A stretch of DNA of 64,000 nt, taken from an uncultured Acidimicrobiales bacterium (GTDB lineage Bacteria > Actinomycetota > Acidimicrobiia > Acidimicrobiales > SHLQ01). Positions 1,458-64,000 of the stretch are shown in pieces. The notes beneath the pieces are model-generated. The model searched no databases, was not told the DNA's origin, and saw only the letters and a program-made list of their open reading frames with translations. The stretch covers positions 1-64,000 of the forward strand of contig CALJDK010000055.1 of assembly GCA_938023735.1 (NCBI GenBank). Direction: 5' to 3'. The position numbers and the translations under genes are program-made. Positions within the stretch are counted from its first letter, which is position 1, and each line of letters begins with the position of its first letter.

Positions 1458-2957
1458 ATGGACAACACCCAAGACACGCAGCATTTCGATGTTGTGGTGG
1501 TCGGCGCCGGCATTTCTGGCATCGGCGCTGCGTACCACCTGCAAGAGTTCTGCCCCGACCGGACCTTTACGATCCTCGAAGGCCGTGAACGTCTCGGCGG
1601 AACCTGGGACCTCTTCCGGTACCCGGGAGTTCGGTCGGACAGCGACATGCACACCCTCGGCTATAGCTTCAAGCCTTGGAAAGACAAGAAAACCATCGCC
1701 GATGGTCCGGCCATTCTCGACTATCTCAATGAGACCGTCGACGAGTACGACATTCGCCGCAAGATCCGGTTCAACCACCTGGTTACCGACGCCAAATGGT
1801 CGACCGACGATGCCACCTGGACGGTGTCCACCACCCGAGCCGACGGCGGCTCAACCCAGACCTACACCTGCAACTTCTTGTTCATGTGCTCGGGCTACTA
1901 CAGCTACAAGGGCGGCTATGAGCCAGAGTTCCCGGGCAGCGAGCGGTTCGGCGGCGAGGTCGTGCATCCCCAGAAGTGGCCCGAAGATCTCGACTACGCC
2001 GGGAAGAAGGTCGTCATCATCGGATCAGGCGCCACCGCGGTCACGCTGGTGCCGGCAATGGCCGATACCGCCGAGCACGTCACGATGCTTCAGCGATCGC
2101 CGACCTATGTGGTGACCCGCCCGTCACAAGACAAGTTGGCCAATAACCTTCGGAAGGTGCTGCCCGAGAAGTTGGCGTACGAAATCACCCGTCGCCGCAA
2201 CGTGTGGCGGGGCGAGATGGTCTACAAGAAAACCCGCACCGAACCCGACAAGGTCAAAGACCTGCTGCTCAAAGGTGTGCGCGACGAGTTGGGTGAGGAC
2301 TACGACGTCGACACCCACTTCACACCTACCTACAACCCGTGGGACCAGCGCATGTGCTTGGTGCCCGACAGCGACCTGTTCGCATCGATCCGCGATGAGA
2401 AAGCCACCGTTGTCACCGACTTCATCGAAACCTTCACCGAAACAGGCATTCAGCTGAAGTCGGGTCAGCACCTCGACGCCGACATCATCGTTACTGCGAC
2501 CGGCCTGCAACTGGTGACCTTGGGTGAGATGACCTTTGAAGTCGACGGCAATCCCGTCGACTTCTCCGAGGTGTGGACCTACAAGGGGCTGGCCTACAGC
2601 GACGTCCCCAACCTGGTGTCGTCGTTTGGTTACATCAACGCATCGTGGACCCTGCGGGCCGACCTCACCTGCGAGTACGTGTGCCGACTTCTCAACCACA
2701 TGGCCGAAACGGGAACCGATGCGTGTACGCCGCGGCTTCGTCCCGCAGATGCCGACATGCCTCGACGGCCATGGATCGACGATTTCTCTGCGGGCTATAT
2801 GCAGCGCATGATGCCGATGATGCCCAAGCAGGGCGACCGGGCTCCGTGGCTCAACACCCAGAGCTACAGCGCCGACAAAAAGCTCTTTCGGGAAGGTCCC
2901 ATCGCCGACGGCGTGATGCGCTTCACCAAGAAGGCTCGAGTCAGAGAAACGGTTTGA
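1458..2957 (+). CDS. Flavin-containing / Baeyer-Villiger-type monooxygenase
   Basis: VVVGAGISGIGAAYHL FAD motif, GTWDLFRYPGVRSDSDM, VVIIGSGATAVTLVP NADPH motif. Confidence 0.9.
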   Translation: MDNTQDTQHFDVVVVGAGISGIGAAYHLQEFCPDRTFTILEGRERLGGTWDLFRYPGVRSDSDMHTLGYSFKPWKDKKTIADGPAILDYLNETVDEYDIRRKIRFNHLVTDAKWSTDDATWTVSTTRADGGSTQTYTCNFLFMCSGYYSYKGGYEPEFPGSERFGGEVVHPQKWPEDLDYAGKKVVIIGSGATAVTLVPAMADTAEHVTMLQRSPTYVVTRPSQDKLANNLRKVLPEKLAYEITRRRNVWRGEMVYKKTRTEPDKVKDLLLKGVRDELGEDYDVDTHFTPTYNPWDQRMCLVPDSDLFASIRDEKATVVTDFIETFTETGIQLKSGQHLDADIIVTATGLQLVTLGEMTFEVDGNPVDFSEVWTYKGLAYSDVPNLVSSFGYINASWTLRADLTCEYVCRLLNHMAETGTDACTPRLRPADADMPRRPWIDDFSAGYMQRMMPMMPKQGDRAPWLNTQSYSADKKLFREGPIADGVMRFTKKARVRETV

Positions 2958-2970
2958 GCCGGATACTTCG

Positions 2971-5900
2971 TTAGACCAGAAGGGCCTCGACCTCGGTCGC
3001 GCCAACGGCGGCGACGTCGTCGTCGAGGGTTCGGCGGGCCTGCAGTGAGGCGAAACCACTGAGTGCGCCCACCGACAGCACGATCACCATGCCGGCGCCA
3101 AGGTGGCCGACCTCGTCGTCGCCACATTCGTAGTTTGCGATGCCGGGGCGATCATCGTCGTCGGCAAGATCCCCGAGCTTCACCCGGCCGTCGATGCACT
3201 CGTACCGGTCGGCCCGATCCTCGACCGCCTGGTCGTCGACGATAGCCACCGGAACGTCACGGTCGGTGAAGGTGATCTGGTCGGCGATGAAGCCGATCGC
3301 CAGCGGAGTAAGTGCGCTGAGAAGGAGTCGGAAGAATGCGTTGACCGAGAACACCGAACCGCGAATTCGGGCGGGAGTGACCTCGCTGATCAACGAGACG
3401 AGGATTGGCCCGGCGGCCACGAGTCCTGCGGCGCCGAACACCAGAAACGGGAACTTCAGCGAAACTGGTGTGGGGGAGTAGGCGAGCATCAGCAGGAGGA
3501 TGCCCAGCTCGGCGCCGATGACGGCGATCCACAGTTTGATGTGGCGCAGTCGGTCGGGGTCGATCGGTTCGGGTTCCGGGTGTTCAACCGTCGGATCCAG
3601 ATTGTCGATGGGGCTCCGCCCGGGAAGCAGCTGGATCAGGCCTCGTACGCCACCGCCAGCCGGCATACGACGGGCCACGAGTTCTGGCCCTCGGGACGCA
3701 ACCCACGCACCGATGAGGGCACCGGCTAACGAGGCGAAGCCGAAAAGGCCTGCCGCTTCGCCCGCAGTGAGGTCGTGATGGCGGCGCAGGAACGTGGGAG
3801 CCCAGAACGTGACACCGATTGGCGGGCCGAAGCTCAGCGCAGTTCCGGCAATCAGATAGGGGATCGATTTCACCCGCCAGATGCTCGACAGCGACTCGCC
3901 CCACGGAACAGCTTCTTCGGCGGCGTTGTCATGCTGGTCCCCTGTGCCTCCTGTGTCACCCTGGGCGGCGCCATGGCCATCGCTGGCGCCCCGGGCCGGT
4001 TCGGGTAACTGCGAGACGAACCAGATGAGTAGTGCGGCCGGTATGGCTCCGACCACGAATGCCCATCTCCAGCCTGCCTTGTCGATCACGATGCCAGCAG
4101 CCAGCGTGCCGAACGCGCCACCGAGAATTGGGGCAACAAGACGCCACGAGAACGCTTTGTGGCGTAACCGGGCCGGGTAGAAATCCGACAGCAGCGACGA
4201 TGACGTGGGATCGTCGATGGTGGTCATCATGCCCAGCGCAGTGCGAAGCACAAACAGGTGAGCAAAGCGCTGAATGGCGCCGGTGAGCGCCGATGTGGCC
4301 GCCCACACGACCATCAGGACGGTGAGGAGTCGCGTGCGGTTGACCCGGTCGGCGAGTCGGCCCGCAAACACCACCACGGCGGCTCCGGCCATGACATCGG
4401 CAAACGGTAGAAAGCCAGCCTGGGTGTCGCTGAACCCGAACTCGTCCTGAAGATCCTCGAGTGCGATGGGCAGAATGCCGCGGGCGATGAAGTCGGCCAT
4501 TGCGATTCCGCCGAGTACGAGCACCGGGATACGTCCGGCATCGCCCCAGGCCGCTTTTTCTGCGGGCCGGTCGTTCCAATGCTCCTTCCAGCGCTGTCGG
4601 CGGTCAGAAAGGCGGAGGATGCCCTCGCCGTTTGCCATCCGGGCGGCGGCCAGAAGACCAAAGGCGCCGACCAGCGGCGCATACCGGGTAAACGACCCGC
4701 CCGAGTCGCTCCCCGACAGCGACGCCAGAAGGCCGCCGGATACGAGCACACCGCCGAGAAAGGCGCCCTTTACGGTCGTGATGCCGGCGATGTACGCAAA
4801 CGCCAGCAACCCCAAGCCGGCGAACAACCCGAAGTTGCTCGCAGTAACGGCGGGGATCTTGTAGGCGAAGAGCACGCCGGCGACCGCTGCCAGACCCGAA
4901 GAGATTGCGAAACCGAGGAGCTTGGTGTTGCCGACGTCGATGCCGACCGCCGCGGCTGCTCGTTCATTCGAACGCACCGCAAGAAAGCGGCGTCCGATAA
5001 CGCCTCGCCGAGTGTTGGCCACCAACAGCGCACAGATGATCGACATGATGATGACGAGGGCCGTGTAGCCCGGACTGTCCGGGGTTCCGGCGTACACGCC
5101 CGATTGCTCGACCTGACGAGGTCCGCCGACGTAGATACCGAACCACCTGGGAACCGGCGTGGGGTTGCTACTGATGGCGCCCTCGCCCATGAGCACCGGG
5201 TTACCGAGAAACAGATCCTCGATGGCGATGACTGCAGTGATCGTGATGATCGCGAGTTGGAAGCCTCGAACCTGTAGCGCTGGAAGCCCAATCACAACGC
5301 CTACGAGCACGACGATCACGACCGCCAAGAGTGCCGCAAGGGGTGCCGGAAGGTCGGCGCCAGTATTGGCAACAAGGTCGGTGGCTCGCACCGATGTGCC
5401 GTCGGCACTGAGTCGAATCATCAGGAACGCAGCGAGACCAGCCAAGCTCCACTGCGCAAGCGAGACCTGGCCCAAGAAGCCGATGAGCACCACCAGCGAC
5501 AACATGAAGATGCCGGCTACCAGGGTGGTGGTGATTCCGCTGTCGATTCGCCAGTTGCCTACCAGCACAAGAAAGACCGTGAATCCAGTGACCACCAGGA
5601 GCGACCGCGCCGAGTCGGGCGAGGCGGGGGCTCGAGCCTGTCCCCGGAGCACGAGGCTGCCGCGCACCGGAAGCTTGTCGCCTCGAAGAAACAGGATTGC
5701 GATGACGATGACGAGAGGGATGACCTGTCGGACACCATCGGCCGGCGCCCAGTCGGGCCAGCCTTCCCGGCCGGCGACCCAGATACCACCCGACTGGATC
5801 ATGCCAATCGCTACGCCCCCGAGCGCAGCGCCGGCGACCGAGGTGAGGTTGCCGACCAAAGCAGCGCCAAGCGCTGGCACCACCAACAAGGTCATGTTGG

Positions 5901-6678
5901 AGGGCTGGGTGAACCCGACGAACATCATGCCGACGATGCCAGCCAGAATCGCCGAAATGACCCAGGTAGTTCCTGCGATCGCATCGGCCGAGTAGCCGAG
6001 GAGCGAGATCCCCCGCTCGTTTTCGTCAACCGCCCGCGCGGCAAGCCCAAATCGTGTGAAACGGATCAGCGCCCAAGCGCCCACGGTGACCACAACTCCG
6101 GCCACGAACAGCCACAGGTTGCTCGTCGGGAGGTCAGAGCCGAGTCCAAGAAAGTTTCGGACGGGTTCCTGGTTGCGTGAGAACACGCCCAAGCCCTGGT
6201 CACCTCGCACCGATCTCCCGAAGTGCACGAACGCGACAGCTTGGAGATAAATCATCACGCCGACGGATCCGAGCACCTTGCTGAGCGGCGAGGCGTGTCG
6301 TAGCGGTCGGAAGACGAGCAGGTGGGCCATGATGCCGATGAGGGCAGACATCGCGAGTCCGACGAACACGGCAACGCTGGCGTTGAGTGGGGATTCGCCC
6401 AGGGTGATTCGGACCGGAAGGTTGTTGATGTGTAGAGCTTGGAGCCAGCCCCACTCGGGAATGATGTCGACCCATGGCAGGTAGATGTCGCCCGATCCCC
6501 CAAGATCTTCCGATGTGCGGATCTGGTTTAAGGTGAGCGCGCTGTACATGGCGATAGCGCCATGACTGAAGTTGATAACCCCAGAACCCCGGTAAGCAAC
6601 AACAAGTCCAACAGCCAGAATCGCGAAGACCGCTCCGGGCCCTATGCCAAGCAGCAGCGAGAACAAAAAGTCAGACAA
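2971..6678 (-). CDS. LivH-LivM ABC permease fused to C-terminal MFS transporter
   Basis: Single 1235 aa ORF: LivH-like N-terminus (VVAYRGSGVINFSHGAIAMY), LivM-like middle (IGFLGQVSLAQWSLAGLAAF), MFS-like C-terminus (DFIARGILPIALEDLQDEFGFSDTQAGFL, GRLADRVNRTRLL). Confidence 0.85.
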   Translation of the reverse strand: MSDFLFSLLLGIGPGAVFAILAVGLVVAYRGSGVINFSHGAIAMYSALTLNQIRTSEDLGGSGDIYLPWVDIIPEWGWLQALHINNLPVRITLGESPLNASVAVFVGLAMSALIGIMAHLLVFRPLRHASPLSKVLGSVGVMIYLQAVAFVHFGRSVRGDQGLGVFSRNQEPVRNFLGLGSDLPTSNLWLFVAGVVVTVGAWALIRFTRFGLAARAVDENERGISLLGYSADAIAGTTWVISAILAGIVGMMFVGFTQPSNMTLLVVPALGAALVGNLTSVAGAALGGVAIGMIQSGGIWVAGREGWPDWAPADGVRQVIPLVIVIAILFLRGDKLPVRGSLVLRGQARAPASPDSARSLLVVTGFTVFLVLVGNWRIDSGITTTLVAGIFMLSLVVLIGFLGQVSLAQWSLAGLAAFLMIRLSADGTSVRATDLVANTGADLPAPLAALLAVVIVVLVGVVIGLPALQVRGFQLAIITITAVIAIEDLFLGNPVLMGEGAISSNPTPVPRWFGIYVGGPRQVEQSGVYAGTPDSPGYTALVIIMSIICALLVANTRRGVIGRRFLAVRSNERAAAAVGIDVGNTKLLGFAISSGLAAVAGVLFAYKIPAVTASNFGLFAGLGLLAFAYIAGITTVKGAFLGGVLVSGGLLASLSGSDSGGSFTRYAPLVGAFGLLAAARMANGEGILRLSDRRQRWKEHWNDRPAEKAAWGDAGRIPVLVLGGIAMADFIARGILPIALEDLQDEFGFSDTQAGFLPFADVMAGAAVVVFAGRLADRVNRTRLLTVLMVVWAATSALTGAIQRFAHLFVLRTALGMMTTIDDPTSSSLLSDFYPARLRHKAFSWRLVAPILGGAFGTLAAGIVIDKAGWRWAFVVGAIPAALLIWFVSQLPEPARGASDGHGAAQGDTGGTGDQHDNAAEEAVPWGESLSSIWRVKSIPYLIAGTALSFGPPIGVTFWAPTFLRRHHDLTAGEAAGLFGFASLAGALIGAWVASRGPELVARRMPAGGGVRGLIQLLPGRSPIDNLDPTVEHPEPEPIDPDRLRHIKLWIAVIGAELGILLLMLAYSPTPVSLKFPFLVFGAAGLVAAGPILVSLISEVTPARIRGSVFSVNAFFRLLLSALTPLAIGFIADQITFTDRDVPVAIVDDQAVEDRADRYECIDGRVKLGDLADDDDRPGIANYECGDDEVGHLGAGMVIVLSVGALSGFASLQARRTLDDDVAAVGATEVEALLV

Positions 6679-7069: not shown

Positions 7070-8227
7070 TCAGAGGGCCTCGATGATGGTTACGTTGGCT
7101 TGGCCGCCGCCTTCGCACATGGTTTGGAGGCCGTAGCGGCCGCCGGTGCGCTCGAGTTCGTTGAGCATGGTGGTCATGAGGCGGGCGCCGGTGCAGCCGA
7201 GCGGGTGGCCCAGGGCGATGGCGCCGCCGTTGACGTTGACCTTCTCGTGAGGAATGTCGTGCTCGTGCATCCATGCCAGAGGCACCGGGGCGAACGCTTC
7301 GTTGCATTCGAACAGGTCGAAATCGTCGATCTTCATGCCGGTCTTCTCGAGGGCATAGCGGGTGGCTTCGATCGGGCCGGTGAGCATGTAGATCGGGTCA
7401 TCGCCGCGCACGCTGAGGTGATGGATGCGGGCCCGAGGCTTGAGGTCGTGATCCTTCAGCGCCTGCTCGGAACACACCAGCATGGCTGCGGCGCCGTCGG
7501 ACAGCTGACTGGCCATGGCGGCGGTGATTCGCCCACCTTCGACCAGCGGGTTGAGCTGCGCCATCTTCTCGAGGCTTCCACCACGGCGAGGGCCCTCATC
7601 GTTCTTGGTGTCGCCGAACGGCACGATCTCGCGTTCGAAGCGGCCTTCGTCGATGGCGGTGATTGCCCGCTCGTGTGATTCGAAGGCGAACTTCTCCATG
7701 TCTTCGCGTTCGAAACCCCACTTCTCGGCGATGAGTTCGGCGCCACGAAATTGGCTGACCTCTTGGGTGCCGTAGCGGTCGACCCAGCCGGTGCTGGTGG
7801 TGAACGGGTCAGTGGCGGTGACGCCCACGTGTTCGGCTACGGTCATCGCAGCGCCGATGGGAATCATGGACATGTTCTGGATACCGCCGGCCACCATCAC
7901 GTCGTTAACGCCGGCCATAACACCGGTGGAGGCAAAGTGAACGGCCTGTTGGCCCGAACCACATTGGCGATCGATGGTGACACCGGGGACGGTTTGGGGG
8001 AGTCCGGCTGCGAGCCATGCAGTACGAGCGACATCGCCAGCCTGGGGGCCGATGTTGTCGAGGCAGCCCATAATGACGTCTTCGACGGCTTCGGGGTCGA
8101 TGCCGGTGCGGTCCATCAAGGCTTTGATGGCGTGGGCGCCCATATCGGCAGGGTGCACCTCGGCAAAGGCGCCGCCTCGTTTTCCAACCGGCGTGCGGAC
8201 TGCGTCGACGATGTATGCGTCACCCAT
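7070..8227 (-). CDS. Acetyl-CoA C-acyltransferase (thiolase, FadA5-like)
   Basis: [14 protein letters not shown] active site, [32 protein letters not shown]. Confidence 0.9.
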
Positions 8228-14310: not shown

Positions 14311-15828
14311 CTATGGTTCGCCGTCACCGATCGCTTCTTTCCGCTTCGCCACGTACTCGTCGAGAGCGTCGCGGCGGTCGGCCGACAGTTCGGGTTCGAC
14401 GTAGTCTTCCAACGCATCCTGCCAAACCTTGGTTGCGCGTTGGGTTGCCGTGCGTCCACCTGACTCAAGCCAGGCGCCGTGGTTCTGCCAGTCGGAGATC
14501 ATCGGCGAGTAGAACGCATCGGTGTAGCGGGTCATCGTGTGCTCGTCGCCAAAGAAATGGCCGCCGGTCGGAACTCGGCTCATCGCGTCGAACGCCAAGG
14601 CTTCGTCGCTGAGATCGATTGGGGTGAGGAACTCCATCATGTGCTGGAGCATCTCGACATCGAGCACCAGCTTTTCGTAGCTGGCCTGGAGTCCGCCTTC
14701 CATCCAGCCTGCTGCGTGGTAGATGAGGTTGGTGCCCCCGAGCACACATCCCCACAGCGACATTTGGGTCTCGTACGCCGCCTGGGCGTCGACGGTGTTC
14801 GACGCACTTGAGTTTGAGGCCCGGTAGGGGAGGTTGTACCGGCGGGCAAGCTGACCGGATGCGACGTTGGCTTTGGCGTGCTCGGGAGTGCCGAACGCTG
14901 GCGAGCCCGACTTCATATCAACGTTCGATGTGAACGAGCCATACATCACCGGTGCGCCGGGTCGGGTCAGTTGGGTGAGCGCGATACCGAACAGGGCCTC
15001 GGCGTTTTGTTGGGTCAGCGCGGCGCCGAGGGTTACCGGCGTCATCGCACCCATAAGCGTGAACGGAGTTACCGAGACCGCCTGGCCATGCTCGGCCATC
15101 GTCATGAGGCCTTTGGCCATCTCCTCGTCGAAACGGCGCGGTGAGTTGACGTTGATGATCGTGGTGACTCCCGGCGATGCGGCCATCTCCTCCAGCGTGA
15201 TGCCCCGGCTGATCGCCATCATTTCGATTCCGTCGAGCGCTCGCCCACGGCCGATCGACAGGCAGTGAAAACTTAGGTCGGATAACGTCAGATTCGCCCG
15301 GTAGGCGTCGAGGTGGCGGTTGTTGGCAGGGAGTTCGAGCGGCGACGCCACCTGGTTGCCGATGATGTGGATGGCGTTGAAGTAGTGCGCGAGGCGAATG
15401 AAGTTTTCGTAGTCGTCCATGTTCGACGACCGGCGGCCGTTCACTTCGTCGTGCACGCTGGGCGGCCCAGCTACCAACCCGAACGCGACATGGTTGCCTC
15501 CCATCGTGAGCTGCTTAGCCTCGTTCCGCGACGTAAGTGTGAAGCTTGCCGGAGTCGTGGTCAGCGCATGCTCGATGATGTCGCGGCCGACCCGAACGGT
15601 TTCGCCTTCGACGATGGCGCCCGCATTGGCAAAACGCTGTCGAGCTTCGGGGCACCACAGCTCGACACCGAGCTCTTCGAGCACCCGAATTGATGCGTCG
15701 TGGATTCGCTCAACCCCTTCCGGGTCGAGCACCGGCAGCGTGCCGTGGGGGTTCGTTACCTGCCGCCAGGGGAGTTGTTTGACGTTGGGTTCTGGCGACC
15801 TCGTTCGTGATCGGCCTCGTCGAGCCAA
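14311..15828 (-). CDS. MttB-like (non-pyrrolysine) trimethylamine/betaine methyltransferase family
   Basis: MttB-family pattern (FGLVAGPPSVHDEVNGRRSSNMDDYENFIRLAHYFNAIHIIGNQV, VMYGSFTSNVDMKSGSPAFGTPE); uninterrupted ORF; likely TTG start just after upstream stop. Confidence 0.85.
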   Translation of the reverse strand: MARRGRSRTRSPEPNVKQLPWRQVTNPHGTLPVLDPEGVERIHDASIRVLEELGVELWCPEARQRFANAGAIVEGETVRVGRDIIEHALTTTPASFTLTSRNEAKQLTMGGNHVAFGLVAGPPSVHDEVNGRRSSNMDDYENFIRLAHYFNAIHIIGNQVASPLELPANNRHLDAYRANLTLSDLSFHCLSIGRGRALDGIEMMAISRGITLEEMAASPGVTTIINVNSPRRFDEEMAKGLMTMAEHGQAVSVTPFTLMGAMTPVTLGAALTQQNAEALFGIALTQLTRPGAPVMYGSFTSNVDMKSGSPAFGTPEHAKANVASGQLARRYNLPYRASNSSASNTVDAQAAYETQMSLWGCVLGGTNLIYHAAGWMEGGLQASYEKLVLDVEMLQHMMEFLTPIDLSDEALAFDAMSRVPTGGHFFGDEHTMTRYTDAFYSPMISDWQNHGAWLESGGRTATQRATKVWQDALEDYVEPELSADRRDALDEYVAKRKEAIGDGEP

Positions 15829-15832
15829 CGGG

Positions 15833-17155
15833 TCAACTCCAGGGGTAGGGGCTGTTTGACACCGGGTGCAGGTTGCCCTCGGCGTAGCGGCGGTATCGGA
15901 ACGGCTCGAGCAAGCCCTGTGTTTGGCCATCGAGCTCTTTGGCCACCAACGCCCCTACACCGATCATTTTGTAGCCATGGTTTGAGTCGCAAATGAAGTA
16001 GGCGTTTTCGGCGAAGGTATCGAAGACCGGGAAGCTGTCGGGAGTGAAGCTTCCAATACCACCCGACGGTTCGTGCTTGATGAGTCCGCTCTTGCCCTCG
16101 AACCGTTTCTGACAGTGCGAGAGGGCCGAGGTCCAGGTGCGGTAGAAGTCGCCACCCACCACGAAGTCGGGTGACTCCGGGCCATAGGGGTCGACGGCAA
16201 CCTCGAGCGCTGGCTTGTCGACGATGTAGGGCATATACCCGCCCTGCACCCCACCGAAGGAGAAGTCGGGTTTGTAGTAAATGCCCCACGGACCTTCGGT
16301 GACCAGTTGGCCGTCGTCGTCGTGAAGCGGCGCATCGGTATCGATGTGAATGACCGGAGGCATGTTGCCGTGGTTGTCGACCAGGTAGCCGGGGTCGACA
16401 CCGAGGACACCCTCTTGCAGTGCCCAGTAGGTCCACGTGTTGGTGTCGTGAAGTTTGCCATCGGACCCCTTTACTGCCGTGGTCACCGGAAGGTCGAGCA
16501 TGGCCCAGAACTTCTGCACCCACGGGCCGACGGCCACGACCACCTGATCGCACGCGATGGTGCCCTGGTCGGTGAGTACGGCGGTGACCGCCCCGGATGC
16601 ATCGGTGCTGAACTCGGTGACCTCAACACCGCCGGTTACAGAAACGCCAGCATCCTCGACTTTGGCGAGTAAGCCTTGCAGTGACTTCTGGTTGTTGGCG
16701 TAGCCGCCCTTCTTTTCGTGAAGCACCGAGGTGATTCCCTGCGCACGCCAGTCGTGGAAGATTCCCTCCATGTAGAGCTTGGATTCATCGGCGCCTTCGA
16801 TAAACACCGATTCGTAGCCGATTGCTTTTTGCTGCTCATAGATCGATCGCACATCGTCGCGCATGCCCTCGTGGCTGATCTGCATGTAGCCAACGGGATG
16901 GTACGAGAACGCTTCGGGGTCGGACTCCCACACGCCGACCGAATGGGCCATGAGTTCGCGCATAGCCGGCTGGAAGTAGTTGTTCCGAATCACTCCGCAG
17001 GCGATGCCCGATGCACCGGCTCCCACATTGGTTTTGTCGACGACGATGATTCCGTCGCCCGAACCACGAAGCCGGGCTAGGTGAAATGCGGTGGAGAGAC
17101 CGTGAATTCCTGCACCGATGATGACGGTGGTTGCGTTTTCGGGGAGCACATTCAT
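15833..17155 (-). CDS. FAD-dependent oxidoreductase, sarcosine oxidase beta/DadA-like
   Basis: TVIIGAGIHGLSTAFHLARL, GASGIACGVIRNNYFQPAMRELM, C-terminal PDSFPVFD / CDSNHGYKMIGVGALVAKEL. Confidence 0.88.
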   Translation of the reverse strand: MNVLPENATTVIIGAGIHGLSTAFHLARLRGSGDGIIVVDKTNVGAGASGIACGVIRNNYFQPAMRELMAHSVGVWESDPEAFSYHPVGYMQISHEGMRDDVRSIYEQQKAIGYESVFIEGADESKLYMEGIFHDWRAQGITSVLHEKKGGYANNQKSLQGLLAKVEDAGVSVTGGVEVTEFSTDASGAVTAVLTDQGTIACDQVVVAVGPWVQKFWAMLDLPVTTAVKGSDGKLHDTNTWTYWALQEGVLGVDPGYLVDNHGNMPPVIHIDTDAPLHDDDGQLVTEGPWGIYYKPDFSFGGVQGGYMPYIVDKPALEVAVDPYGPESPDFVVGGDFYRTWTSALSHCQKRFEGKSGLIKHEPSGGIGSFTPDSFPVFDTFAENAYFICDSNHGYKMIGVGALVAKELDGQTQGLLEPFRYRRYAEGNLHPVSNSPYPWS

Positions 17156-17205
17156 GGAATCACCTTAGAGAGATCGGCCTCAGCGTCCTATGACCAATAT
17201 ATAAT

Positions 17206-17233
17206 CGTCTCATACCTTCAAAGGTATGAGACG
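17206..17233. promoter_or_regulatory. Perfect 13 bp inverted repeat, likely LysR operator
   Basis: CGTCTCATACCTT-CA-AAGGTATGAGACG, immediately after TATAAT at 17200-17205, between divergent genes. Confidence 0.75.
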
Positions 17234-17247
17234 GTTAACCTGTAGCG

Positions 17248-18165
17248 ATGCACCTTGAGCAGCTTGAGTTGTACGCAACCGTTGTCGAGCAGGGCGGCAT
17301 GACCGCAGCGGCCGACAAGCTCGGCATGTCGCAGCCTGCCGTGAGTCGATCGATCCGGACTCTCGAGCGACAGTTGGGCGTTTCGCTCTTTCGTCGCGAC
17401 GGTCGGAGCGTCGAACCCACCGCGGCTGGCCGATTGGCATACGAGCGAGTCACCACGCTCACCACCGATTGGCGAAGCCTCATGGCCGAGTTGCGGCTGT
17501 TGGCCGGGCGACCCGACGACGTAGTGCTGGCCGTCCCGTTTGGCACCGCCCGTATCCTGATTCCTGTGCTCGTGCGGCGCGCTGCCACCGACCTCCCCGA
17601 TATTCGGGTGCGCGTTATCGAGTCGGCGTCGCCCGATAGTCGAGCCTCGGTGGCCTCGGGCGACATCGATGCCGCGGTCATCTACCCCGAACCCGAGATG
17701 CAGCCTGCCGACCCCGGGCTTGAGGTGCTCTGTACCGAGCGGCTGTGCGCAATGGGCCAACAAGAACTGGTTGGGCACGATAACGTCGCGATCTCACTTC
17801 ATGACCTTGCCCAACTCCCGCTTCTGCTCACGGGCCCAACGTGGAGCATTCGACGATCGATCGATGCGGCATTTGCAAGCATCGGTGCCGAACCCCAGGT
17901 GTTGCGCGAGGTTGGCATCGCCGATGCGCTTCTTTCGTTCGCGCTCGAAGGCGATGGCGTTGCCATCCTGCCCTATAGCAATGCGGCGCGAGACCACGAA
18001 CTTGAACTCTTGGCGGTGCGCGAGATTGAACAGCCCGAAATCGAACGTTCGCTGACGATGTGTCTCGGTACTGGCTTGCCTGAAGTGGTAGCTGACGAGC
18101 TTCGCTCCATCATCACGGCATCTGTTGCTGAAGTTGCATCGTCGGCGCGCTGGACGATTCGGTAG
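17248..18165 (+). CDS. LysR-family transcriptional regulator
   Basis: N-terminal HTH MHLEQLELYATVVEQGGMTAAADKLGMSQPAVSRSIRTLERQLGVSLFRRDGRSVEPT. Confidence 0.93.
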   Translation: MHLEQLELYATVVEQGGMTAAADKLGMSQPAVSRSIRTLERQLGVSLFRRDGRSVEPTAAGRLAYERVTTLTTDWRSLMAELRLLAGRPDDVVLAVPFGTARILIPVLVRRAATDLPDIRVRVIESASPDSRASVASGDIDAAVIYPEPEMQPADPGLEVLCTERLCAMGQQELVGHDNVAISLHDLAQLPLLLTGPTWSIRRSIDAAFASIGAEPQVLREVGIADALLSFALEGDGVAILPYSNAARDHELELLAVREIEQPEIERSLTMCLGTGLPEVVADELRSIITASVAEVASSARWTIR

Positions 18166-18260
18166 CTCCCTGTCTCCGTACCATCGCCACACCATGGCCG
18201 CACCGCAAAATCGACAGGGATTCGCTTCTCATACGGCCCAGAACGTGACATGGTTCACCT

Positions 18261-19367
18261 ATGGCAATCACTGAACCCGACACGCAGGAACTCCCCAGCC
18301 GGAGCGTGATGGACGAGTCGATCCGGCTCATCACCGACAACGCAACGCGCATCATGACGTGGGAATACGACCGCGAGCGCGACCAACTGGTCACGCTGTA
18401 CAACAAGGCGATGTCGTCGCAGTGGAACAGTGTCACCGACCTCGATTGGGCCATCGACGTCGACCCAGAGCGACTCGTCAACGAACAACCGAGTCCCGTG
18501 ATGCAGCTCGTTCGCGCTGCAAGTGAGATTCCGAACTCGCCGATTGCCAGCTGGGGCGAGAAAGAACACACCGAAGCGGGCATCGAGTTCCTTAAGGCCA
18601 GCATGAGCCAATTCATGCATGGCGAGCAGGGTGCCATGATGACTGCGGCCAAGATTGTCGAAACGGTTCCCTGGATCGACGCTAAGTACTACGCCTCAAC
18701 CCAGACTATGGACGAGGCCCGCCACACTGAGGTGTTCGCCAAGTACCTGCACGAAAAACTCGGCGACGCCTACCCCATGAGTCCAAATCTCGACGCGCAG
18801 ATCATGGCGTTGCTCGAGGACTCCCGCTGGGATATCGCCTATCTCGGCATGCAGATCGTTATCGAAAGTCTGGCCCTCGCCGCCTTCGGCGACATGCTCC
18901 GGCGAACCAACGAACCGCTCCTCCGCAAACTGCTTCGTTACGTGATGGCCGACGAAGCCCGCCACGTTGCGTTCGGCATTTTGAGCCTCTCGGAGTACTA
19001 CGAGAACCTCTCGTCGGCCGAGCTCAAAGAGCGCCAAGAATTCATGCTCGAAAACACCATCCGTCAGCGTGGCCGCTCGACGACGCCTGAGGTCTGGGAC
19101 CACCTCAACGTGTCGCTCGAAGAGGTCCTTCCCTTCCTTCACCAGGCATCGGCCGAAATTGGCATGCACCCCACGGCGCAGTTTCAGCGCGGATTCTTTG
19201 CCAAGCTGGTGCCCAACACCCGCCGACTCGGACTCCTCGATGCCAACGACGGCTACCTGCGCAAAGCATGGGGTGAAGCTGGCCTCATGGAGTACGAGTT
19301 CGCCGACGACACGGCAACCGATTACAACTCCTACGACGCCGTCGCCGCTGATCGAGCCGCTCGCTGA
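18261..19367 (+). CDS. Ferritin-like / R2-like diiron protein
   Basis: DEARHTEVF and ADEARHVAFG ExxH-type motifs. Confidence 0.75.
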   Translation: MAITEPDTQELPSRSVMDESIRLITDNATRIMTWEYDRERDQLVTLYNKAMSSQWNSVTDLDWAIDVDPERLVNEQPSPVMQLVRAASEIPNSPIASWGEKEHTEAGIEFLKASMSQFMHGEQGAMMTAAKIVETVPWIDAKYYASTQTMDEARHTEVFAKYLHEKLGDAYPMSPNLDAQIMALLEDSRWDIAYLGMQIVIESLALAAFGDMLRRTNEPLLRKLLRYVMADEARHVAFGILSLSEYYENLSSAELKERQEFMLENTIRQRGRSTTPEVWDHLNVSLEEVLPFLHQASAEIGMHPTAQFQRGFFAKLVPNTRRLGLLDANDGYLRKAWGEAGLMEYEFADDTATDYNSYDAVAADRAAR

Positions 19368-19381
19368 CGCTCGCTTCTGGA

Positions 19382-19398
19382 GTTTCGCGTAGCGAAAC
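19382..19398. terminator. Hairpin between convergent genes
   Basis: GTTTCGC-GTA-GCGAAAC, perfect 7 bp stem. Confidence 0.55.
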
Positions 19399-19422
19399 AT
19401 CCCCGCCGCTCGCTGACCCCCG

Positions 19423-20259
19423 CTACGACTGGTTGAGAGCCACCGAGATCTGTTCGTAGTCGACGGTCCAGAGTCTTGAGTTCTGGCCGTAGCTTTCCCA
19501 GCCGAGAAGCCGCCGGGCGCGATCTGACAGGTGCTGGGCCGATTCCCACGGCACCGAAATGGGCAGGGCCTCTTCGGGGGTGAGCCAGCCGAGAACGAAC
19601 GAGACATGAAGTCCGAGGCGCCACTCATCGGCAGTCCTGTTTGCACCGGCATTGTGAATTACCCGGCCGCTGTAGATCAATCCGTCGCCCGGCTGCATTT
19701 CGGCCACCGCCACCTCGTCGTCGGTAGCCGCTCGGCCGTAGTCGTCCCAACGGTGGCTGCCGGGCACCACCTGGGTTGCGCCGTTCTGAGTGGTGAACTC
19801 GCCAATGGCATACATGCACGAAATGGTGACCTCCGGCGACGTCGGCGAACAGAGCGACACCCAGTTGTTCGCATCACGGTGCCGCATCTGGGTCGACTCG
19901 CCCGGCCCGATTATCATCATCTGTCCGGTGTTGAGCCAGTAGTCCTGAGCTGAGGCAAGAAGCACCTCATCGCAGACCCCAAGTAGTGCGGGGTTAAGCA
20001 GAATGTCTTCGAACGCGGGGCTTCGGTGAGCCAGCCGGGTGAACCGTTTGGTCTCGGTTCCCCAGAACTCGATCGTGCGGTCCCCACCCGTGGTTGCCCC
20101 CGCCGGATGCTCGGTTGCAGTTTGTTCGATGTCGGCCTTGAACCGCTCGATCGTGTCGTCGTCGAGCAGGCCACGGACAATGACGCCTCCGTCGCGGTCG
20201 AGCATCGGAAGGATGTCGTCGGTGGTGGATCCGGCTTCGAGAATCGTCAGTTCAGCCAT
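19423..20259 (-). CDS. Phytanoyl-CoA dioxygenase (PhyH) family
   Basis: GGVIVRGLLDDDTIERFKADIE, MRHRDANNWVSL Fe ligands, NGATQVVPGSHRW. Confidence 0.88.
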   Translation of the reverse strand: MAELTILEAGSTTDDILPMLDRDGGVIVRGLLDDDTIERFKADIEQTATEHPAGATTGGDRTIEFWGTETKRFTRLAHRSPAFEDILLNPALLGVCDEVLLASAQDYWLNTGQMMIIGPGESTQMRHRDANNWVSLCSPTSPEVTISCMYAIGEFTTQNGATQVVPGSHRWDDYGRAATDDEVAVAEMQPGDGLIYSGRVIHNAGANRTADEWRLGLHVSFVLGWLTPEEALPISVPWESAQHLSDRARRLLGWESYGQNSRLWTVDYEQISVALNQS

Positions 20260-63209: not shown

Positions 63210-64000
63210 TTACATGAACACTTCGCGTTCAAACCCGTCGATAAGGGTTTCAACACGGCCCATTTCCTCAAGAATCTCTCGAGGGTCAAGGGTTCCTTCC
63301 AGTGATCCGTTTTCATCGATCACTGCGATTGGTAGGCCACGACCTGCGGCCTGGTAGTTCTCGTTCAGCGTGGCGGTTTTGGTGGTCACGTCGAAGTCGG
63401 TTCGTACAGCAGTCGACAGGTCGGTGGTGCCGACGCTGCTGGCGCGCATGGCGTCGTCGCGGGTGAGCAGGCCGGTGGGTTTTCCTGCTGCGTCGACGAC
63501 GAAAGCTCCGGCGCGGCCATTGAGTGCGGTAATTGCAGCGTCGAGGCTGAGCGACCCATCGATGGGGTCGCTGCCGCCCATGATCTCGGTGACCTGGATG
63601 ACACGACCTTGGTCGACGTCCTGGACGAATTCGGCGACATAGCCGGTTGCTGGTTGGGTGAGGATTTCCTCGGGTGTACCGATCTGAACGACGGCGCCGT
63701 CCTTCATAATGCAGACCCGGTTCCCCACGCGAAGAGCTTCGTTGAGGTCGTGCGTGATGAACAGGATGGTCTTTTGGAGCTCGTTCTGGATATCCATGAG
63801 CTCGTCTTGCATCTGGCGACGGATGAGGGGGTCGAGGGCGGAGAACGCCTCGTCCATGAGCAAGATGTCGGGGTCCGAGGCCAGGGCGCGTGCAAGACCA
63901 ACTCGCTGCTGCATGCCGCCGGAGAGTTGGCTCGGCATGCTTTCGGAGTAGGCCTCGAGGCCAACGAGCGAGAGTGCTCGCAGAGATGCGGCATCGCGTT
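63210..64000 (-). CDS. proV: Glycine betaine ABC ATP-binding protein with CBS-like C-terminus, 5' end outside window
   Basis: PSQLSGGMQQRVGLARALASDPDILLMDEAFSALDPLIRRQMQ, CBS-like VVDAAGKPTGLLTRDDAMRA; frame open to window end. Confidence 0.92.
   Translation of the reverse strand, partial: RDAASLRALSLVGLEAYSESMPSQLSGGMQQRVGLARALASDPDILLMDEAFSALDPLIRRQMQDELMDIQNELQKTILFITHDLNEALRVGNRVCIMKDGAVVQIGTPEEILTQPATGYVAEFVQDVDQGRVIQVTEIMGGSDPIDGSLSLDAAITALNGRAGAFVVDAAGKPTGLLTRDDAMRASSVGTTDLSTAVRTDFDVTTKTATLNENYQAAGRGLPIAVIDENGSLEGTLDPREILEEMGRVETLIDGFEREVFM

Follow-up and report, generated by a model that had tools for sequence, protein, structure and literature searches.

A single uninterrupted reading frame in the window, by which we mean the whole stretch of 64,000 nucleotides analysed here, joins a LivH-like and a LivM-like ABC permease to an MFS carrier, and this LivHM-MFS fusion is real, conserved and unusual. 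ABC importers and MFS carriers are regarded as separate, alternative routes for moving a solute. We read the fusion as a hybrid transporter, in which an ABC permease powered by LivG and LivF and a probably proton-coupled MFS carrier would handle one substrate or two closely related ones; the probability of this reading is, in our estimate, about one half.

A conserved three-part gene

The features of the gene and its surroundings are collected in Table 1. The position of its start codon is kept in all four known orthologues of the fusion, as either TTG or GTG. In the predicted protein Pfam finds two stretches of BPD_transp_2, both above the cut-off, followed by MFS_1, which scores 124.7 bits against a cut-off of 33.4 and has its best stretch at residues 725-1000. 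The NCBIfam matches follow the same division and all score far below their cut-offs: those in the first part are LivH/UrtB-like, those in the second are LivM-like, and the third is matched by several MFS models. The preliminary description of this DNA had placed LivH, LivM and an MFS transporter in one frame, and the open frame together with the domain searches bears this out; the boundaries it drew between the three modules were accurate to within a few tens of bases. The linker between the permease pair and the carrier is probably cytoplasmic.

Table 1. Positions in the window of the fusion gene, its parts and its neighbours.
Feature	Position	Strand	Residues	Basis and remarks
LivH-LivM-MFS fusion gene, whole	2971..6678	-	1-1235	1235 aa; TTG start at 6678, stop ending at 2971; open end to end
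LivH-like permease half	5644..6678	-	1-345	BPD_transp_2 at residues 13-328; NCBIfam LivH/UrtB
Putative ATPase-coupling loop, LivH half	5992..6060	-	207-229	FTRFGLAARAVDENERGISLLGY; conservation
LivM-like permease half	4609..5643	-	346-690	Second BPD_transp_2 stretch; LivM and UrtC matches
Putative ATPase-coupling loop, LivM half	4921..5004	-	559-586	GVIGRRFLAVRSNERAAAAVGIDVGNTK; conservation
Linker, basic, hydrophilic	4531..4608	-	691-716	In 4/4 orthologues; hydropathy
Complete MFS carrier, 12 helices	2974..4530	-	717-1235	MFS_1, E 5e-36; motif-A-like GRLADRVNRTR; TM4 TIDDPTSSSLLSD
Enlarged TM11-TM12 loop	3103..3282	-	1133-1192	Two invariant cysteines; exceeds that of relatives by about 46 aa; alignment
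FMO-like flavin monooxygenase, convergent neighbour	1458..2957	+		Pfam; context only
Thiolase, upstream neighbour	7070..8227	-		Pfam; gap of about 390 bp to the fusion gene (gap sequence); context only

The same architecture occurs in four species-level genomes from two families, at 70-90% identity, which does away with the idea that the fusion is unique to this contig. Protein searches recovered the three other orthologues at 90% (G003/L044), 82% (G002/L045) and about 72% identity (G861/L046), the last of them in a different family of the same order. No further fusion of this kind was found beyond these four in samples of 395-397 genomes each from the class, the order and the phylum, and G001, the fourth sampled member of the window's genus, is without it. 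In a tree of 41 LivHM sequences the four fusions form one clade with a support of 100/100, and its sisters are LivHM proteins from the same and nearby families; judged by this tree, the fusion has a single origin across the four genomes. Pairwise dN/dS among the four is 0.07-0.16 for the LivH and LivM halves, and 0.02-0.06 and 0.05-0.11 for the first and second halves of the MFS part. All three parts are under purifying selection.

The permease half and the source of its ATPases

A LivHM fused in one chain is the norm among the relatives of this protein in the order. In what the preliminary description termed a triple fusion, the LivH-LivM part is therefore not unusual; what is new is the MFS. 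Actinobacterial LivHM and LivHM-LivG proteins share the arrangement of LivH and LivM in one chain, while their C-terminus bears an ATPase or nothing where that of the fusion bears an MFS carrier. Compared with LivH and LivM of the hydrophobic amino acid importers (HAAT, Liv/Urt), the fusion has the same two BPD_transp_2 halves and both of the coupling loops, and differs in the attached MFS and in the lack of adjoining LivFGK.

The two loops were compared in an alignment of 41 LivHM rows. The loop of the LivH half has a mean identity of 93% within the fusion clade and of 70% with the paralogues linked to LivGF, against 74% and 50% for the remainder; for the loop of the LivM half, the identity with those paralogues is 81%, against 50% for the remainder. 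Both loops are retained in the fusions, the LivM loop being weaker in G002, whose GI is gone. From their family membership they would be the helices that couple the permeases to their ATPases.

No LivF, LivG or LivK adjoins the fusion gene in any of the four genomes, as had been claimed earlier for this locus. In the window, no Liv ATPase or binding protein lies within the first 16 kb, and the sole match to an ABC ATPase in the entire 64 kb is a partial open reading frame at 63651-63977 (- strand), a distant relative about 32% identical to LivG/LivF. A search elsewhere in the genome did find LivG, LivF and LivK, the matches to the LivG family (PF12399) and the LivK family (PF13458) all being on contigs other than that of the fusion. 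The same genome has a second locally orphan Liv system, a LivK-LivHM pair without an adjoining ATPase (L048 3127-6752, - strand). Given the gap to the thiolase gene and the convergent monooxygenase gene, the fusion gene is probably transcribed alone. The genes that flank it vary among the four genomes; in G003 it is followed by an ABC ATPase and an 814-residue possible FtsX-like permease (L044 11058-14290, + strand), which are not of the Liv type by similarity.

All four fusion genomes carry an unfused LivHM paralogue, about 50-54% identical to the fusion and immediately followed by LivG and LivF. LivK precedes this LivHM in the three fusion genomes whose locus extends far enough, and LivK is found elsewhere in every fusion genome tested. 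In the window's genome the operon, on contig 199, runs LivK, LivHM, LivG, LivF, a 343-residue membrane protein and a second LivHM, and this position of LivGF between two LivHM genes suggests that a single pair of ATPases may already be shared by two permeases. The 343-residue membrane-like protein (L047 5667-6698, + strand) has no Pfam match. Since both coupling loops are retained and each of the four genomes encodes LivG and LivF in the operon of the paralogue, the LivHM of the fusion is likely powered by ATPases borrowed in trans. At E<=1e-150 the paralogue occurs in 16 of 397 genomes of the order, all four fusion genomes included, and the co-occurrence of fusion and paralogue amounts to two lineages, which are confounded by shared ancestry and make no independent test. 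It had been suggested that an MFS module was recruited as a partner to orphan ABC permeases. Recruitment fits with the conservation in four genomes, with the recurrent joining of MFS to Liv proteins and with a stand-alone relative beside a Liv cluster, both described below; the permeases, however, are orphan only locally, in view of the LivGF operon of the paralogue.

The MFS half and the recurrent joining of MFS to Liv proteins

The MFS part is complete, as first described: hydropathy shows 11 clear helices, and homology supplies TM4 (at about residues 805-825) as the twelfth. Motif A, between TM2 and TM3, is invariant in the four orthologues. Matches to the fusion among PDB sequences are to MFS proteins only (EfpA, DgoT, SPNS2, SV2 and NorA). 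AlphaFold2 models from four-row alignments had a mean pLDDT of 31.8 for the full-length L046 orthologue and of 45.3 for the MFS part of the window's protein. The carrier shares the 12 helices, motif A and the TM4 signature with DHA1, aromatic-acid/galactonate and Spinster-like carriers (TIGR00893, TIGR00895, SPNS2, DgoT), but it is far below the cut-offs of these families, is fused, and has an enlarged TM11-TM12 loop. It matched no named MFS subfamily with a known substrate, all the NCBIfam MFS scores being far below cut-off (at best 79.6 against 395 bits). The enlarged loop, which is very acidic, is common to the four fusions and counts 71-73 residues in them, against 14-26 over the same columns in 58 of the 59 other MFS rows and 48 in the remaining one. 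Its predicted location is extracytoplasmic, where it could, as a guess, serve as a disulfide-closed cap or a docking site.

Among the stand-alone MFS proteins sampled, the nearest to the carrier of the fusion is one of 602 residues in G075, 43% identical over the N-terminal half. Its gene lies about 1 kb downstream of LivK-LivHM-LivF and in the same direction, with LivG divergent; none of the 28 other stand-alone MFS relatives has a LivHM gene within about 5 kb, on contigs several of which end early.

MFS carriers have been joined to Liv systems in another way as well. Contig 109 of the window's genome has two MFS-LivF fusions, of 776 and 796 residues, each overlapping or abutting a LivHM-LivG fusion. 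These two Liv loci are in opposite orientations (L050 5072-10260, - strand, and 15587-20000, + strand), and their MFS-LivF proteins are 72% identical. In the phylum sample, MFS-LivF proteins occur in 19 of 397 genomes, the window's genome and 18 others; some of them are MFS-LivF-LivG, and LivHM adjoins in most of the loci. On a plasmid of Embleya sp. NBC_00888, for instance, LivHM and LivG come after MFS-LivF, in a different frame. Open frames of 1,200-1,800 residues near some of the MFS-LivF matches suggested a single LivHM-MFS-LivF-LivG chain; this was rejected, as LivHM is in a different frame from the MFS in nine of nine loci.

In both types of fusion an MFS of the same broad subfamily is joined to a Liv ABC system, but in the MFS-LivF and MFS-LivF-LivG proteins it sits on the ATPases and in ours on the permeases, and the two occupy separate branches of the MFS tree. 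The LivF-fused carriers form two separate groups in this tree, and a constraint to a single group is rejected (AU p 0.0075); these groups may also come from losses of one ancestral fusion. The LivHM-MFS fusions take a third position, among stand-alone MFS proteins, in a tree whose root is not known. By this placement, the LivHM-MFS join is an event separate from the MFS-LivF joins. We found no description of an ABC-MFS or Liv-MFS fusion in the open-access papers searched, and Streptomyces transportome papers, examined by term search, name no such fusion. Within that open-access literature, the broader tendency of Actinomycetota to fuse MFS carriers with Liv ABC systems, to which our fusion belongs, is apparently undescribed.

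How the fusion may work

In the hybrid transporter that we favour, the LivHM half would be a working ABC permease pair that imports with LivG and LivF from the paralogous operon elsewhere in the genome, and it possibly borrows the LivK binding protein too. The MFS half would work as a full secondary carrier, with protons as its probable driving force, for the same compound or a close relative of it. The substrate is probably an organic acid or another catabolic compound and not a branched-chain amino acid in the strict sense. Weak hints at the breakdown of organic acids or similar molecules come from the flanking and related genes, which include a thiolase, a monooxygenase, a P450, a short-chain dehydrogenase and acyl-CoA-ligase-like and flavin oxidoreductase-like genes. 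By fixing the ratio and the place of both transporters, the fusion would add gradient-driven uptake or overflow to ATP-driven scavenging. The ATPases in trans, the shared substrate, the proton coupling and the direction of transport are all four what we infer, as is the coupling of ABC and MFS, to which the fusion itself and the operon and neighbour data speak by association. That other actinobacteria have joined ABC and MFS differently suggests that both act on a common substrate.

The two transporters could also have been joined for co-expression or a fixed ratio within one catabolic function, with each of them working alone, the MFS for example exporting another intermediate or waste. In keeping with this, the parts of the fusion are complete modules, joined by a short linker whose conservation, at 54-58% identity between families, falls below that of the domains. 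A precedent exists in Rhodococcus jostii RHA1, where the uptake of different metabolites from one catabolic pathway is divided between the ABC system CamABCD and the MFS carrier CamM (PMC8399759); the likeness to our fusion is in the arrangement, an ABC system and an MFS in one pathway, and CamABCD and CamM are separate proteins. That MFS carriers have repeatedly been joined to more than one kind of Liv subunit, however, suggests more than chance co-expression, and we regard this explanation as rather unlikely, though a serious contender.

Less probable still is that the MFS alone transports, and that LivHM has become a scaffold or a docking platform for a binding protein without ATP-driven transport of its own. 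Such a role would suit the lack of an ATPase adjoining the fusion in all four genomes, the missing GI of the LivM loop in G002, and the N-terminal half of the MFS as the best-kept part of the protein (89-90% identity between families, where the Liv halves have 63-74%). It is harder to reconcile with the retention of both coupling loops, the low dN/dS throughout the Liv halves and the LivGF pair present in every fusion genome. Finally, a merger of two genes by assembly or sequencing error can be set aside: although the fusion-bearing genomes are metagenome assemblies of 110-310 or more contigs, the same junction and linker are intact in three other genomes, which were assembled independently and whose fusions are 70-90% identical, and the alignment of the four orthologues has neither a frameshift nor a stop there, which rules out a missed stop or an assembly join near 4600.

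Returning to the hybrid transporter, we tentatively extend it to a composite class, somewhat doubtful as yet, in which one polypeptide would couple an ATP-driven unit, with its ATPases in trans, and a gradient-driven unit for one substrate, and which would have arisen repeatedly in Actinomycetota through the joining of MFS carriers to different Liv subunits. The recurrent fusion of ABC and MFS genes in one phylum suggests that the two act jointly on some substrates, and the LivHM-MFS fusion makes dual energization testable in a single protein. If true, these poorly cultured actinobacteria would need a different annotation of their “orphan” Liv permeases and of their MFS genes.
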